DNA of 64,000 bases from Gemmatimonas sp. (lineage in GTDB: Bacteria; Gemmatimonadota; Gemmatimonadetes; Gemmatimonadales; Gemmatimonadaceae), in assembly GCA_011390885.1 (NCBI GenBank), contig JAABRO010000005.1, positions 1 to 64,000 of the forward strand, read 5' to 3'. Each line of letters opens with the position of its first letter. Positions within the stretch are counted from its first letter, which is position 1. This document shows positions 11,599 through 16,641 of the stretch, one piece after another. The notes beneath the pieces were generated by a model. It made no database searches, was not told the DNA's origin, and saw nothing but the letters and a program-made list of their open reading frames with translations. The translations under genes and the position numbers were made by a program.

Positions 11599-12558
11599 TC
11601 AATTCACTGCGGCCTGCACCTCCGTTGCGCCAAGCAGCGGCAGCAGCAGCACGAACGCGGCCCCACCTTCGCGCGCCCGTTGCACCCAGATCGTACCGCC
11701 CAGTCCCTCCACGGTCTGCGCGACGATCGCGAGTCCAAGTCCGGTGCCTCGCCCGGCGGGCTTCGTGCTGTAGAACGGCTCGAACACCAGCTCCGCGTCC
11801 GACTCGGGGACGCCCGGGCCGGAATCCGCGACGACGACCTGCAGCACCGCCTCGGGGCGATTCCGGCGGGACAGCCAGACAAGTGCCCGCTGGCTCGGCG
11901 CGTGCCGGAACCGCTCCTCGGCGGGATCGTCGTGCCGCCTCGACGTGGCGGCGAGCAGCGACTCCGCCGACACGACGCGGGATCGCAGCATGAGCCGGCC
12001 CGCGCCGTGCATGGCATCCACCGCGTTCAGCAGCAGGTTCACGAAGGCCTGCTCGAGATCGTGCCGCTCGGCACGAATGGCCGCCTCCCGCTGCTCCACA
12101 TCCCACGTGACCTCCACACGGCGCAGCAGCCCCTGATCGCGGACCAGTCGCACCACGTCGTTGAGCACGACATCGACGCGCACGGCCCCTGGCGTCGCGC
12201 GCCGCGGACGCGCGAAGTCGAGCAGGCCGCCCACGATGCGCTCGATGCGCTCGACCTCCCGGTCGAGCGCGTCGAGGGCCGTGTCGACACCGTCGCTGCC
12301 ACCCGCGCGAAGGCGCACGACGTGGGAGTAGCCGGCGATGGCGGCGAGCGGATTGCCCACTTCGTGGGCGATTCCGGCCGCGAGACGCCCGGTGCTGGCG
12401 AGCCGATCCGCTCGCGCCAGCGTCTCGGTGGCGGCCGCGATCGCCGCATCGGCACGGCTCCGCTCGCGCCGAACCACGGCGCGCAGGGCGAGCGCCCCCA
12501 CGGCAAGGGCCGCGAGGAGGAGCAGGCCGATCAGGGCGAGGACGAGCGGGAGGGGCAC
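11599..12558 (-). CDS. Small membrane histidine kinase in the minor-pilin operon
   Basis: The product is about 319 residues: one membrane helix at the N-terminus (VLALIGLLLLAALAVGALAL), an H-box AAGIAHEVGNPLAAI (His65) and a C-terminal ATPase domain. That domain has an N-box (VNLLLNAVDAM), a G1 box (DSGPGVPESDAELVFEPFYSTKP) and a G2 box (RGTGLGLAIV). No sensor or PAS domain is present. The start is a GTG (VPLPLVLAL) at 12558. The longest reading would use a TTG at 12618, which lies in the T-run of the pilA terminator. It has no adjacent response regulator of its own; PilR, encoded 900 bp upstream, is a candidate partner. The role in pilus control is inferred. Confidence 0.82.
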   Translation of the reverse strand: MPLPLVLALIGLLLLAALAVGALALRAVVRRERSRADAAIAAATETLARADRLASTGRLAAGIAHEVGNPLAAIAGYSHVVRLRAGGSDGVDTALDALDREVERIERIVGGLLDFARPRRATPGAVRVDVVLNDVVRLVRDQGLLRRVEVTWDVEQREAAIRAERHDLEQAFVNLLLNAVDAMHGAGRLMLRSRVVSAESLLAATSRRHDDPAEERFRHAPSQRALVWLSRRNRPEAVLQVVVADSGPGVPESDAELVFEPFYSTKPAGRGTGLGLAIVAQTVEGLGGTIWVQRAREGGAAFVLLLPLLGATEVQAAVN

Positions 12559-12616
12559 GGAGCGGAAACTGGGCGACGTGCCGCACCGTGGCCAGCGGTG
12601 GACCTCCCCCGAACGC

Positions 12617-12645
12617 AAAAAGGGGCCGGGCTTTCGCCCGACCCC
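12617..12645 (-). terminator. Intrinsic terminator of pilA
   Basis: Read on the minus strand: GGGGTCGGGC, a GAAA tetraloop, GCCCGGCCCC, then TTTTT. The ten-pair stem has one G-U wobble. It begins 36 bases after the pilA stop codon. It should end most pilA transcripts, so the kinase and minor-pilin genes beyond it depend on read-through or on their own promoter. Confidence 0.9.
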
Positions 12646-12681
12646 CTCTTGCCCCGGTCCAATGGACCGGCAGGGCCGTGA

Positions 12682-13065
12682 TTACGGCGTGGTGCAGATC
12701 GGCTCACCCTCGACCTCGACGCCGTCGGCGTTCGCGACCGCCTCGTCGCCGACACCGATCTCGCACGTCACTCCCGTCGCGTCGTGCTCGGCCGAAGCGG
12801 TCCAGCCCGTCGCGGTGCCCGACTGCGTGAGGCGGACGCCCGACGAGCCCTGCGGGTTGGCCTCGATGTTCGCATACGTGTTGTCATCGGAGAACTGCGC
12901 CTCGTTGGCCGAAACCAGGTTCTTCAGGTCCGACTTCATGGCCGTGATGTACGCCTTCTCCTTCGTGTTCGCGAACTTCGGGATCGCGATCGCGGCCAGA
13001 ATGCCGATGATCACAACGACGATCAGGAGTTCGATGAGGGTAAAGCCTTTGCGGGTCCGGGGCAT
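12682..13065 (-). CDS. pilA: Major type IV pilin
   Basis: Structural subunit of the pilus. The start at 13065 gives a short leader, MPRTRKG, cut by prepilin peptidase before FTLIELLIVVVIIGILAAIA; Glu12 is the +5 Glu of the mature pilin. The 127-residue precursor has a small head with two Cys (Cys101 and Cys124) placed to close a C-terminal disulfide loop. GGAGA lies about 10 bases before the start. It is monocistronic by layout: a strong terminator follows and a sigma-54-type promoter precedes it. pilS and pilR lie upstream on the same strand. Confidence 0.95.
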   Translation of the reverse strand: MPRTRKGFTLIELLIVVVIIGILAAIAIPKFANTKEKAYITAMKSDLKNLVSANEAQFSDDNTYANIEANPQGSSGVRLTQSGTATGWTASAEHDATGVTCEIGVGDEAVANADGVEVEGEPICTTP

Positions 13066-13138
13066 GTTCCTATCTCCGTGAGGTGAGAGTTGGATCGACG
13101 CAGTCTCATCCGAGTCCTGCGCGACACCATCACCTAGG

Positions 13139-13153
13139 GCAATGCGCGGGCCA
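13139..13153 (-). promoter_or_regulatory. Sigma-54 (-24/-12) promoter of pilA
   Basis: On the minus strand the 15-mer is TGGCCCGCGCATTGC. The RpoN consensus is TGGCACG-N4-TTGC, so only one position (A to C) differs, and the invariant GG and GC are in exact register. It predicts a transcript start near 13127 and a leader of about 62 bases to the pilA ATG. The adjacent pilR encodes a sigma-54 activator, as in known PilS/PilR-controlled pilin genes. Confidence 0.82.
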
Positions 13154-13175
13154 CTCGGAATGACACAAGCAAACA

Positions 13176-13190
13176 CGTTGCACCGCAACG
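13176..13190. promoter_or_regulatory. Inverted repeat upstream of the pilA promoter (proximal)
   Basis: CGTTGC-ACC-GCAACG, a perfect 6+3+6 dyad centred about 56 bp upstream of the predicted pilA transcript start. Spacing and the TTGC core are like those of the distal dyad at 13251-13265. It could be a weaker activator site. Confidence 0.5.
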
Positions 13191-13250
13191 ACTTGCATCA
13201 TTCCACCGCAGCCCGCACCACGACCATGCACGCTGCGTTTCGCAAGCTCC

Positions 13251-13265
13251 CTTGCAGCGTGCAAG
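13251..13265. promoter_or_regulatory. Inverted repeat upstream of the pilA promoter (distal, probable enhancer)
   Basis: CTTGCA-GCG-TGCAAG, a perfect 6+3+6 dyad about 131 bp upstream of the predicted pilA start, a usual distance for enhancer-binding proteins. The same arms recur at 16627-16641 in front of pilS. Probable PilR site; this is inference. Confidence 0.62.
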
Positions 13266-13312
13266 ACCTCCGTCGTTCCGACGCATCGGCGTGGCAGGCC
13301 CGGGATGTGACA

Positions 13313-13340
13313 GAGGCGCGCGTCGTGTGACGCGCGCCTC
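13313..13340 (-). terminator. Hairpin after pilR
   Basis: GAGGCGCGCGTC, a GTGT loop and GACGCGCGCCTC form a perfect 12-bp stem, beginning 77 bases after the pilR stop on the minus strand. No T-run follows. It would separate the pilSR transcript from the pilA enhancer region. Confidence 0.55.
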
Positions 13341-13417
13341 TTCGCAATCCTTCGCCGTGCCTGCGACGGCCCGTGCCCGCCGGACAATGCGCCCCGCTCG
13401 GCGCTTCGATCCGGCCG

Positions 13418-14797
13418 TCAGGCCGCGTCCTCACCGTACCGCGCCAGCTTGCGATACAGCGTGCTCGGGTCGATGCCGAGCACTTCCGCGGTGCGGCTCT
13501 TGTTGCCGCTCTCATTGTGCAGCACCCACGAGATGTACGCCCGCTCGATCGCCTCGAGCGTGGGCGTGGTCGGGGTGCGCTCCGCCACCAATGGCTCCGC
13601 CTTTCGTTCGATCACGCGAGCGGGCAGCGCGCTCACCTCGATCGAGCCGCCCGGCGACAGGATGACCGCGCGCTCCAGTGCGTTCTCCAGCTCGCGCACG
13701 TTGCCGGGCCAGGCGTACGACTGCATGGCGTCCTTTGCCGACTCGGTGAGCTGCTTGGGCGACTCTCCGCGCTGCTGTGCGACGCGCGACAGGAAGTGCT
13801 CGGCCAGCAACGGAATGTCGTCCACCCGCTGACGCAGCGGCGGCAGGTGCAGCGCGATCACGTTCAGGCGGTAGTACAGGTCGCCGCGGAAGCTGCCACG
13901 CTTGATCTCCTCCTCGAGGTCGCGGTTGGTGGCGGCCACCACGCGCGCGTTGATCGGCACCGCCTCGGTCGCACCCACCGGGATCACCTCACGCTGCTGC
14001 AGCACGCGCAGCAGCTTCACCTGCGTGGCGGCCGTGGTCTCGCCGATTTCGTCGAGAAAGAACGTGCCCCCCGACGCAGCGGCAAAGAGTCCCGTCTTGT
14101 CCTTCACGGCACCGGTGAAGGAGCCCTTCACGTGGCCGAACAGTTCGCTCTCCAGCAGGGACTCCGGCAGCGCGCCGCAGTTGATCGACATGAACGGCTG
14201 CTCGTGACGGCCGCTCAGCTCATGGATGTACCGCGAGATCACTTCCTTGCCGGTCCCCGATTCGCCGGTGATGAGCACCGTGCTGTCGGTCGGCGCCACC
14301 ATCTCGGCCATGCGCAACGCCTCCTGCCACGCGCGGCTCTTCCCGATGGCGGACACGCCCGTGACCCGATCGCGGCGGCGGATCTCCTGCTTGAGCACCG
14401 TGTTCTCCACGCGCAGCCGGCGATGCTCCACCGCGCGGCGCAGGATCGCCAGCAGTTCGTCGTTGCGAAACGGCTTCTGGATGTAGTAGAACGCGCCCTC
14501 GTTCACCGCCTGCATGGCCGACTGCAGCGATGCCTGCGCTGTCATGAGGATGACGGGACACGACGGATAGCGCTCGCGCACCGCCGCAAGTACCTGCACG
14601 CCGGTCACGTCGGGCATGCGAATGTCGGTGAGCACGACATCCGGCTCACCATCGTCGAGTCGATCGAGACCGGCACGCCCGCCGAGCGCGACGGTTGGGT
14701 GGAATCCCTCACCCTTGAGCAGGATGCGCAGGCTCTCGAGAATGCCGGTCTCGTCGTCGACGAGGAGCACGCGGGGGGCGGCAGCGGTGGTGGTCAC
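13418..14797 (-). CDS. pilR: Sigma-54-dependent response regulator, PilR-type
   Basis: NtrC-family activator of 459 residues. The receiver domain comes first, with acidic pair DDE (14-16), phosphorylation site Asp58 in VVLTDIRMPD and Lys108 in QKPF. The AAA+ domain has Walker A GESGTGKE (178-185), the sigma-54 contact loop as GSFTGA (225-230, Ser for the usual Ala) and Walker B FFLDEIG. A C-terminal Fis helix-turn-helix (SRTAEVLGIDPSTLYRKLARYG) ends it. GTG at 14797 is chosen as start because the receiver begins at once; the open frame further upstream overlaps pilS. It follows pilS by 37 bp, and pilA with a -24/-12 promoter lies downstream. PilR is preferred over other NtrC-like names by context. 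Confidence 0.9.
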   Translation of the reverse strand: MTTTAAAPRVLLVDDETGILESLRILLKGEGFHPTVALGGRAGLDRLDDGEPDVVLTDIRMPDVTGVQVLAAVRERYPSCPVILMTAQASLQSAMQAVNEGAFYYIQKPFRNDELLAILRRAVEHRRLRVENTVLKQEIRRRDRVTGVSAIGKSRAWQEALRMAEMVAPTDSTVLITGESGTGKEVISRYIHELSGRHEQPFMSINCGALPESLLESELFGHVKGSFTGAVKDKTGLFAAASGGTFFLDEIGETTAATQVKLLRVLQQREVIPVGATEAVPINARVVAATNRDLEEEIKRGSFRGDLYYRLNVIALHLPPLRQRVDDIPLLAEHFLSRVAQQRGESPKQLTESAKDAMQSYAWPGNVRELENALERAVILSPGGSIEVSALPARVIERKAEPLVAERTPTTPTLEAIERAYISWVLHNESGNKSRTAEVLGIDPSTLYRKLARYGEDAA

Positions 14798-14834: not shown

Positions 14835-16532
14835 TCACGCGGCCGCCGACAGAACGGGAGCAACCGCTGGCGCCGTGGCGTCGCCCGGCTGCGACCGAGG
14901 AATGAGCAGGGTGAAGCGGGTACCACGCGGTAGCGCATCCACGAGCACGACGCCGCGATGCGCCTCGGCCGCGCGATGCACGATGGCGAGGCCGAGCCCG
15001 CTGCCACCGGGCTTGTCCGTCACGAATGGCTCGAAGAGGCGGTCGCGCACGGCCGACGCGATGCCGGGGCCGTCGTCGGCCACATGCACGGCCACGGCAT
15101 CGCCGTCGAGCGCGCTGTCCCGGGCCGCCGCCACCGTCACGCGCACCGTGCCGGACGCGCCCACCGCCTGCACGGCGTTGAGCACCAGGTTGAACACGGC
15201 GCGGTGCAGCAGGTCGTCGTCACCGGCCACCTCGCAGGCGTCGTCGGTCGCCTCGAGGGAGACGGTGACCCCAGCGTGCCGATCGGGGTGCTGGGTCACG
15301 AGCGCGACCGCCGAGCGGGCCACGGCCGCGACGTTGACGGGCGTGAGCTGGGCTGCCCGCGTGCGCGCGAAGTCGAGGAACTCGGAGAGGAGTCGGCTCA
15401 GGCGATCGGCCTCGCGCACGGTCAGTGCGAAGAGGGCGGTCTCGTCCTCGTCGCCGTCGGCGCGGCGCGCGTGCCGGCGCGCGAGCTGCTCGGTGGCGCT
15501 ACGAATGGAGGCGAGCGGGTTCTTGATCTCGTGGGCGAGCGAGGCGCTCAGCTCGGCTACCGCCTGCAGGCGCTCCGTGCGCACGTGCAGGGCCTGCAGC
15601 CGCTTGCTGTCGGAGATGTCCTGGAAGATGGCCGTGGCGGTGCGCCCCGCCCCGTCGCGATCGGCGAAGGTGGTGGTCACCCCCACCTGCACCGTGCGCC
15701 CGTCGCGGTGGATCACGCCTTCGGCGCGGCTGCGGCGCTCACCGTCGCGAGCTGTGCGCTCGAGCACCTCCGCCAGCGGCGGGGCCACCCGGGCAAGCGT
15801 GCCGAGCACCGGCCGCCCCACCAGCTCGCGCAGGCGTACGCCGAGCAAGTCGCTCGCCGCCGGGTTGGCGTACAGGAGGTGGCCGGTCGCGTCCACGGTG
15901 ATGATGCCGCTCTGGATGCTGCGGAGGATGTCCGCCGCCTCGAGCTGCACCTTCACGAGCTGCGCCGCGAGGGCGTCCCGACCGGCACCGGCCTCGCGCA
16001 GGCGCGCCGCGATCACGCCGCTCCCCAGCGACACCACCGCGAAGACGGCCAGCTGCACCCAGATGGCGAGCTGGGGCGCGGCCATGCGGAACCACAGCAC
16101 GTCGGCGGCGTAGAGCGCGCTGGCGGCGACGGCCACCAGCAGGCCATCCCGGAAGGGGAGCAGCAGCGCCGCGACGGCGATCACGAGGATATAGAGGGCG
16201 GCGAACTGGGAGCTCCAGCCGCCAGTCACGTGCACCACGGCCGTGACCAGCAGGAGATCCACGCCGCACTGGACGAGCACGAAACCGCGACCGGTCGGGC
16301 GGCGGTATATTTCGCGATACATCGCGGACGCCACCGTCGCGAGCACCGAGCCGGCGAACGCCAGGGTGGCCACGAGCGTATCTACCGGACGCGCCCGCTC
16401 CCAGACGAACACCGCCGCGACGAGGATCGCCACCCCCATGGCGACGCGCCCGACCCAGACCCAGCGCAGCACCTGGGTGGGGTCGAGCATTCGGCGAACC
16501 GCCAGTTCGGGATAGCTTGGGGTGTAGCGCAT
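14835..16532 (-). CDS. pilS: Membrane sensor histidine kinase, PilS-type
   Basis: Partner of the adjacent response regulator. The 565-residue protein has about six membrane helices in the first 200 residues, as in PilS. A PAS domain follows (about 215-320, SIQSGIITVDATGHLLYANPAA), then an H-box SASLAHEIKNPLASI. The ATPase domain has N-box FNLVLNAVQAV, G1 box VADDGPGIASAVRDRLFEPF and G2 box GGSGLGLAIVHRA. ATG 16532 (MRYTPSYPELAVRR) is the most plausible start; a longer reading to 16640 would run through the operator-like repeats. In known systems PilS senses unassembled pilin in the inner membrane and controls PilR; the same role is inferred here. Confidence 0.9.
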   Translation of the reverse strand: MRYTPSYPELAVRRMLDPTQVLRWVWVGRVAMGVAILVAAVFVWERARPVDTLVATLAFAGSVLATVASAMYREIYRRPTGRGFVLVQCGVDLLLVTAVVHVTGGWSSQFAALYILVIAVAALLLPFRDGLLVAVAASALYAADVLWFRMAAPQLAIWVQLAVFAVVSLGSGVIAARLREAGAGRDALAAQLVKVQLEAADILRSIQSGIITVDATGHLLYANPAASDLLGVRLRELVGRPVLGTLARVAPPLAEVLERTARDGERRSRAEGVIHRDGRTVQVGVTTTFADRDGAGRTATAIFQDISDSKRLQALHVRTERLQAVAELSASLAHEIKNPLASIRSATEQLARRHARRADGDEDETALFALTVREADRLSRLLSEFLDFARTRAAQLTPVNVAAVARSAVALVTQHPDRHAGVTVSLEATDDACEVAGDDDLLHRAVFNLVLNAVQAVGASGTVRVTVAAARDSALDGDAVAVHVADDGPGIASAVRDRLFEPFVTDKPGGSGLGLAIVHRAAEAHRGVVLVDALPRGTRFTLLIPRSQPGDATAPAVAPVLSAAA

Positions 16533-16604
16533 TCGAGGGTCTGAGGCGTTTGCCGCGTCGAGGGCCCCGACATCCAGGCCGGGTTCACCTGTGGCAACCT
16601 GCGA

Positions 16605-16641
16605 GACTCTCGGAATCCGGGAGAGTCTTGCAGAATGCAAG
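16605..16641. promoter_or_regulatory. Two adjacent inverted repeats before pilS and the CorC-like gene
   Basis: GACTCTC (16605-16611) and GAGAGTC (16621-16627) form one dyad. It touches a second, CTTGCA-GAA-TGCAAG (16627-16641), whose arms equal those of the pilA enhancer dyad at 13251-13265. They lie in the 147-bp divergent gap between pilS and the + strand gene at 16680. They could be operators for autoregulation of pilSR; no -24/-12 element was seen beside them. Confidence 0.55.

Follow-up and report, generated by a model that had tools for sequence, protein, structure and literature searches.

A conserved sigma-54 promoter element before pilA in Gemmatimonas sp. and an associated palindrome as candidate IHF-type bending site

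The window (i.e. the whole 64,000-nucleotide stretch of DNA that was analysed) carries pilS, pilR and pilA on its minus strand (Table 1), and the pilS and pilR homologues that the earlier note had placed just upstream of pilA on the same strand were borne out by the domain content of their products. The GSFTGA loop of PilR could be read in the translation, and a PilR-specific NCBIfam model was not among the 25 matches listed. Downstream of pilA, domain searches revealed PilM, PilO and a PilQ-type secretin. Because of the strong hairpin 3′ of its ORF, pilA probably forms a transcript of its own; a consensus scan missed this hairpin (12652-12615), probably because the T run lies within the stem. 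Directly behind pilA, and before the further pilus-cluster genes, lies a second histidine kinase gene (window 11599-12558, minus strand) with HisKA and HATPase domains and without PAS.

Table 1. Genes and predicted control elements at the pilA locus (window coordinates)
Feature	Position	Strand	Basis and remarks
pilS, sensor kinase (6TM_PilS, PAS, HisKA, HATPase)	14835..16640	-	domains; start codon tentative
pilR (receiver, sigma-54 activation with GSFTGA loop, Fis-type HTH)	13418..14797	-	domains; predicted GTG start at 14797
distal dyad TTGCA-CGC-TGCAA, candidate PilR site 1	13252..13264	-	pilin-enriched; binder putative
proximal dyad TTGCG-AAA-CGCAG, candidate PilR site 2	13233..13245	-	pilin-enriched; binder putative
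23-bp palindrome AAGTCGTTGCGGTGCAACGTGTT	13172..13194	-	10/10 conserved positions; proposed symmetric IHF-type bending site, binder putative
-24/-12 sigma-54 (RpoN) promoter element TGGCCCGCGCATTGC	13139..13153	-	consensus match and conservation; predicted transcript start ~13127
pilA, type IV pilin, 127 aa	12682..13065	-	N-methylation motif
strong hairpin 3′ of pilA, likely terminator	12615..12652	-	fold z -4.7

Direct reading of the minus strand confirmed the sequence that the earlier note had reported upstream of pilA, with 73 nt separating TGGCCCGCGCATTGC (13153-13139) from the pilA ATG at 13065. Its description as a near-perfect RpoN site with exact GG/GC spacing was also correct, as 10 of the 11 fixed bases of TGGCACG-N4-TTGC are matched (the RpoN consensus is quoted as mrNrYTGGCACG-4bp-TTGCWNNw in PMC2725144). 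When the 300-bp region upstream of pilA was shuffled with its dinucleotides preserved, 51 of 5000 shuffles attained the same score (~1%). Allowing up to two mismatches, the whole window yielded 27 matches versus a shuffle mean of 34, and a genome-wide scan with at most one mismatch yielded 61 matches versus 143 for the reversed pattern, so that there was neither an excess in the window nor an enrichment in the genome. The -24/-12 motif taken alone is therefore modest evidence and only suggestive, and the genome-wide scan, whose outcome the earlier note could not see, led us to drop motif frequency as an argument for a promoter.

These counts and the ~1% of shuffles would equally be expected if GC-rich DNA had produced the -24/-12 match by chance and a housekeeping promoter read pilA. 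Such a coincidence is nevertheless very improbable, given that a sigma-70-type consensus scan of 12500-13450 revealed no site and that the element is conserved at a fixed position across the family. At least 9 of the 11 bases were present 45-120 nt before the ATG in 73 of 105 non-redundant Gemmatimonadaceae major-pilin upstream regions, versus 2 and 3 of 105 in control stretches (120-195 and 195-270 nt, respectively), 11 of 105 on the opposite strand and ~2.1% in shuffles. The other 32 of the 105 scored at most 8/11, some of them without a clear -24/-12 element. This set goes back to 191 pilin matches, which gave 120 distinct upstream regions with an identified start codon and no less than 120 nt of preceding sequence; 108 of these had a major-pilin N-terminus, and 105 remained after redundancy removal. 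Among the genus members examined, all five (L032-L035, L149) kept 10 of the 11 bases at 71-75 nt before the ATG. Since the -24/-12 element is kept at a fixed position across the family, the sigma-54 promoter appears real in the sense that selection keeps the element, and there is very probably such a promoter before pilA, as the earlier note had claimed; what bears this claim out is the family-wide conservation, not the motif match alone. Besides the 73 family upstream regions, the genome's own second pilin gene (on contig C43) has a sigma-54-like sequence, CGGCATCACCCTTGC.

The earlier note had further proposed a check for rpoN, which was found in this genome (PF04552, E 4e-62) as well as in 139 of 148 family genomes; all 100 with a completeness of 90% or more and a contamination of 5% or less have it. 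Its tentative placement in the Gemmatimonadota also proved right, the named relatives being Gemmatimonadaceae MAGs. PilR orthologues were found across the family, with a pilin-type gene within ~1.5 kb in 38 of 123 downstream stretches examined (by row count); in the remaining stretches pilA lies elsewhere or the contig ends (3 of 96 PilR downstream regions were left out at such contig ends). The presence of rpoN, pilR and pilS, together with the conserved -24/-12 element, supports the suggestion that the PilSR-RpoN-pilA circuit is kept in this lineage, and we infer that RpoN and PilR drive pilA.

Some family loci carry tandem pilin copies (L241, L243, L179, L245, L247), most of them with a -24/-12 element of their own that differs from the others, which suggests separately tuned pilin paralogues. 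At eight other loci (L039-L042, L044, L045, L048, L070), a divergent pilin-like gene follows pilR after only 0-26 nt; wherever sigma-54-driven pilin copies were observed as well, it precedes them.

Upstream of the -24/-12 element lies a palindrome that the earlier note had missed, as it had the candidate PilR dyads described below. Its consensus is AAGTnRTTG-N5-CAAYnACTT, and the window copy ends 18 bp before the TGG. Pilin promoters of the family were anchored on the T of this TGG (83 of the 120 upstream regions had a GG/GC site of at least 8/11, and 79 were left after redundancy removal), which revealed AA at -41/-40, TT at -35/-34, AA at -26/-25 and TT at -20/-19; in this set the -24/-12 columns arise partly by construction, but the palindrome and dyad columns do not. 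Dyad symmetry peaked at -30 from the T of TGG, with 0.39 complementary pairs versus 0.21-0.28 at other tested centres. At least 7 of the 10 fixed positions were matched at the exact register in 47 of the 79 promoters and one base over in 24 of 79, whereas other tested slides gave 0-3 of 79.

Further upstream, at ~105 and 86 bp from the TGG, the pilA promoter contains paired GCR-N3-YGC dyads. Such a dyad was found between -150 and -51 in 76 of the 79 pilin promoters, versus a shuffle mean of 29 and a maximum of 42 (the promoters are related by descent, so that shuffle statistics overstate their independence), and it was most frequent around -109 to -106 and -90 to -87. Among composites of palindrome and sigma-54 site, GCR-N3-YGC occurred in 22 of 27 before pilins versus 14 of 54 elsewhere, and the more specific TGCA-N3-TGCA in 8 of 27 versus 0 of 54. 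The paired dyads are thus likely to be PilR sites, as far as sequence can indicate. Several flagellar rod sites have CGGCA-N5-TGCCG-like dyads instead (L285, L296, L299, L312, L400), and because the pilin dyads differ from these, each activator seems to have distal sites of its own, with the palindrome in common. At four flagellar rod promoters (L296, L301, L302, L308), an inverted repeat resembling GGTCGGGCC...GGCCCGACC overlaps the -24 element and is possibly an operator.

The palindrome is not confined to pilin promoters. The genome itself has nine sites with the exact palindrome core, versus one for the reversed pattern, including one before the second pilin gene (L273), where the gap to the sigma-54-like sequence is likewise 18 bp, and one where a gene group leading up to fliF begins (contig C19, L272), followed 30 bp on by the sigma-54 site TGGCCCAAGCATTGC. 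We read this gene group as a flagellar operon because of the FliF downstream; an identification of its first gene as FlgB was dropped, as Pfam gave no match. Further copies lie at an ECF sigma gene (C43, L274), upstream of gyrB (C9, L270) and at a DNABII gene (C59:132252, L277), and some of the other sites in this genome may be due to chance. Across the family, a strict palindrome occurred in 62 of 148 genomes (control 2/148), and a palindrome followed by a sigma-54 site in 53 of 148 (reversed control 0/148). The latter arrangement was found in 78 of 298 genomes of the phylum (control 2/298), 33 of which are outside the family and three of those outside the class (by row count). The genes behind palindromes that were checked by Pfam include those for flagellar rod proteins, GroES, DnaK, Hsp20, ParB, an ECF sigma factor, GyrA, GyrB, ribonucleotide reductase, FliL and a Flp-type pilin. 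Sigma-54 sites with a palindrome upstream of dnaK, groES and hsp20-type genes were seen at L393, L397, L424 and L425 (assigned by Pfam) and at L398, L399, L402, L418 and L420 (from sequence similarity alone), a hint that sigma-54 may govern heat-shock genes in the Gemmatimonadota. One ribonucleotide reductase gene behind a strict palindrome (L363:1839-3023) contains an intein-like stretch (Pfam below cut-off).

As the palindrome is among the best-conserved elements of the pilin promoters, it could be thought a promoter-proximal PilR site. Its occurrence before flagellar, groES, dnaK and hsp20 genes makes this quite improbable, however, and it is the distal dyads that are enriched at pilins.

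The distance between palindrome and TGG was examined at 81 distinct composite sites (only composite matches at loci L284-L313 and L374-L425), and measured 15-19 bp in 50, 20-23 in 3, 24-31 in 25 and 33-34 in 3. Among the 55 composites that do not precede a pilin gene, the corresponding numbers were 25, 2, 25 and 3. None of 5000 uniform draws was as periodic, and the best period was 12.2 for all sites and 12.7 for the non-pilin sites, which approximates a turn of the helix but exceeds 10.5 bp. This suggests that the protein binding the palindrome has to occupy a favoured side of the DNA with respect to the polymerase.

The genome encodes one DNABII (HU/IHF) protein, which scored higher against IHF-beta (91 bits) than against IHF-alpha (87 bits) or HU (57 bits), all below the equivalog cut-offs. 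All 30 orthologues compared retain the motif IEVRGFGTF, whose Arg aligns with Arg46 of IHF-beta. In E. coli IHF, Arg46-beta enters the minor groove and the prolines intercalate 9 bp apart, the consensus being WATCARNNNNTTR (PMC8421141). The inner TT and AA steps of the palindrome are also 9 bp apart, and each of its arms resembles half an IHF site (CAANNNNTTR), an arrangement that might suit a homodimer whose halves are both of the beta type. Moreover, the DNABII gene's own promoter has a near-match to the palindrome over its -35. In 24 of 30 loci it covers 9 or more of the 10 positions (counted by row, one distant match being left out), although a TTGACA -35 box at this place makes the near-match ambiguous. 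Of the 15 such promoters left after redundancy removal, 13 had AA at -6/-5 and ~14 had CAA at 8-10. Since the single DNABII protein is IHF-beta-like and its own promoter carries a near-match, the palindrome would best be read as a symmetric IHF-type bending site, and we consider binding by an IHF-type protein about as likely as not, or slightly more so. Against this reading, the WAT part of the IHF consensus is not conserved. None of the papers listed by a literature search on IHF homodimers was relevant. CtrA-type and Fis-type sites were also considered but tentatively set aside on spacing and symmetry.

The main rival to this IHF reading accepts the sigma-54 promoter but takes the palindrome for the operator of a dedicated transcription factor coordinating surface organelles and chromosome genes. 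Two-fold symmetry over 23 bp is usual for a dimeric regulator and would suit such a factor, which could also account for the strict palindromes preceding gyrB, gyrA, parB, ribonucleotide reductase, ECF sigma and pilin genes. At gyrB, gyrA and parB no sigma-54 site of at least 8/11 was found within reach of the palindrome, as a dedicated factor would give, and no match to WATCARNNNNTTR, even with one mismatch, was found near pilA between the activator sites and the -24 element. Yet the palindrome keeps preferred spacings to the -24 element before very different genes, with probably different activators, which together with the 9-bp spacing of TT and AA would fit a bending protein; no candidate regulator gene was found. 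We regard a dedicated factor as rather unlikely. The strict palindromes before gyrB, gyrA and parB were seen at L270, L346 and L355 (confirmed by Pfam) and at L344, L361 and L366-L369, and those before gyrB are followed ~16 nt on by a TTGC, potentially a -35.

With the palindrome taken as an IHF-type bending site, the pilA promoter would be of the sigma-54 type in three parts. RpoN-RNA polymerase would wait in closed form on the -24/-12 element. Once switched on by PilS, PilR would occupy the paired TGCR-N3-YGCA dyads ~130 and 112 bp upstream of the start, while a homodimer of the single IHF-beta-like DNABII protein would occupy the palindrome centred ~56 bp upstream of the start, its bend letting PilR reach the polymerase. 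We favour this three-part arrangement with some reserve, as we infer from sequence which protein goes with which element, the bend itself, and the dependence on RpoN and PilR. A broader scheme, which we put forward tentatively and hold slightly more doubtful than not, is that throughout the Gemmatimonadota one homodimeric IHF-beta-like protein recognises a site of two-fold symmetry (a pair of inverted CAANNNNTTR-like halves, their TT and AA steps 9 bp apart) that is built at preferred distances into the sigma-54 promoters of pili, flagella and heat shock; the same protein would control gyrA/gyrB and parB, repress its own gene, and tie surface organelles to chromosome topology.

For this poorly studied phylum, the analysis offers a concrete promoter model and a searchable motif for sigma-54 genes; among the papers listed by literature searches on sigma-54 in Gemmatimonadota/Gemmatimonadetes and on Gemmatimonas pili, flagella, promoters and start sites, none dealt with these promoters. 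If the single IHF-like protein binds the palindrome, this would illustrate how a homodimeric IHF can become specific through the symmetry of its site, and the control of pili and flagella would be tied to a chromosome-shaping protein.

The PilSR-RpoN-pilA circuit is of an already known kind. In Geobacter sulfurreducens, pilA likewise lies directly downstream of pilR, with an RpoN element before pilA and PilR as activator (PMC2725144). That RpoN element was mapped by 5′-RACE, whereas the present one is read from sequence; the main text of the Geobacter report has no occurrence of IHF, and the report apparently describes no palindrome (PMC2725144). In Pseudomonas aeruginosa, a PilS/PilR pair also controls the major pilin, but its PilR sites are described as TGTN11AGA, with GTCT elements close by (PMC6058289) rather than the candidate TGCR-N3-YGCA dyads seen here. 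The placing of a bending protein between activator sites and a sigma-54 element is known as well, with IHF heterodimers: for the Desulfovibrio vulgaris orp operons, activator sites at -131 and -88 are described along with IHF sites at -42/-79 and -43 (PMC3897727). There, an IHF alpha/beta heterodimer uses asymmetric WATCAR-N4-TTR-like sites (PMC3897727), in contrast to the one DNABII gene and the symmetric site found here. What is new in the Gemmatimonadota is the symmetric element itself, which occurs across the phylum and keeps preferred distances to sigma-54 sites.
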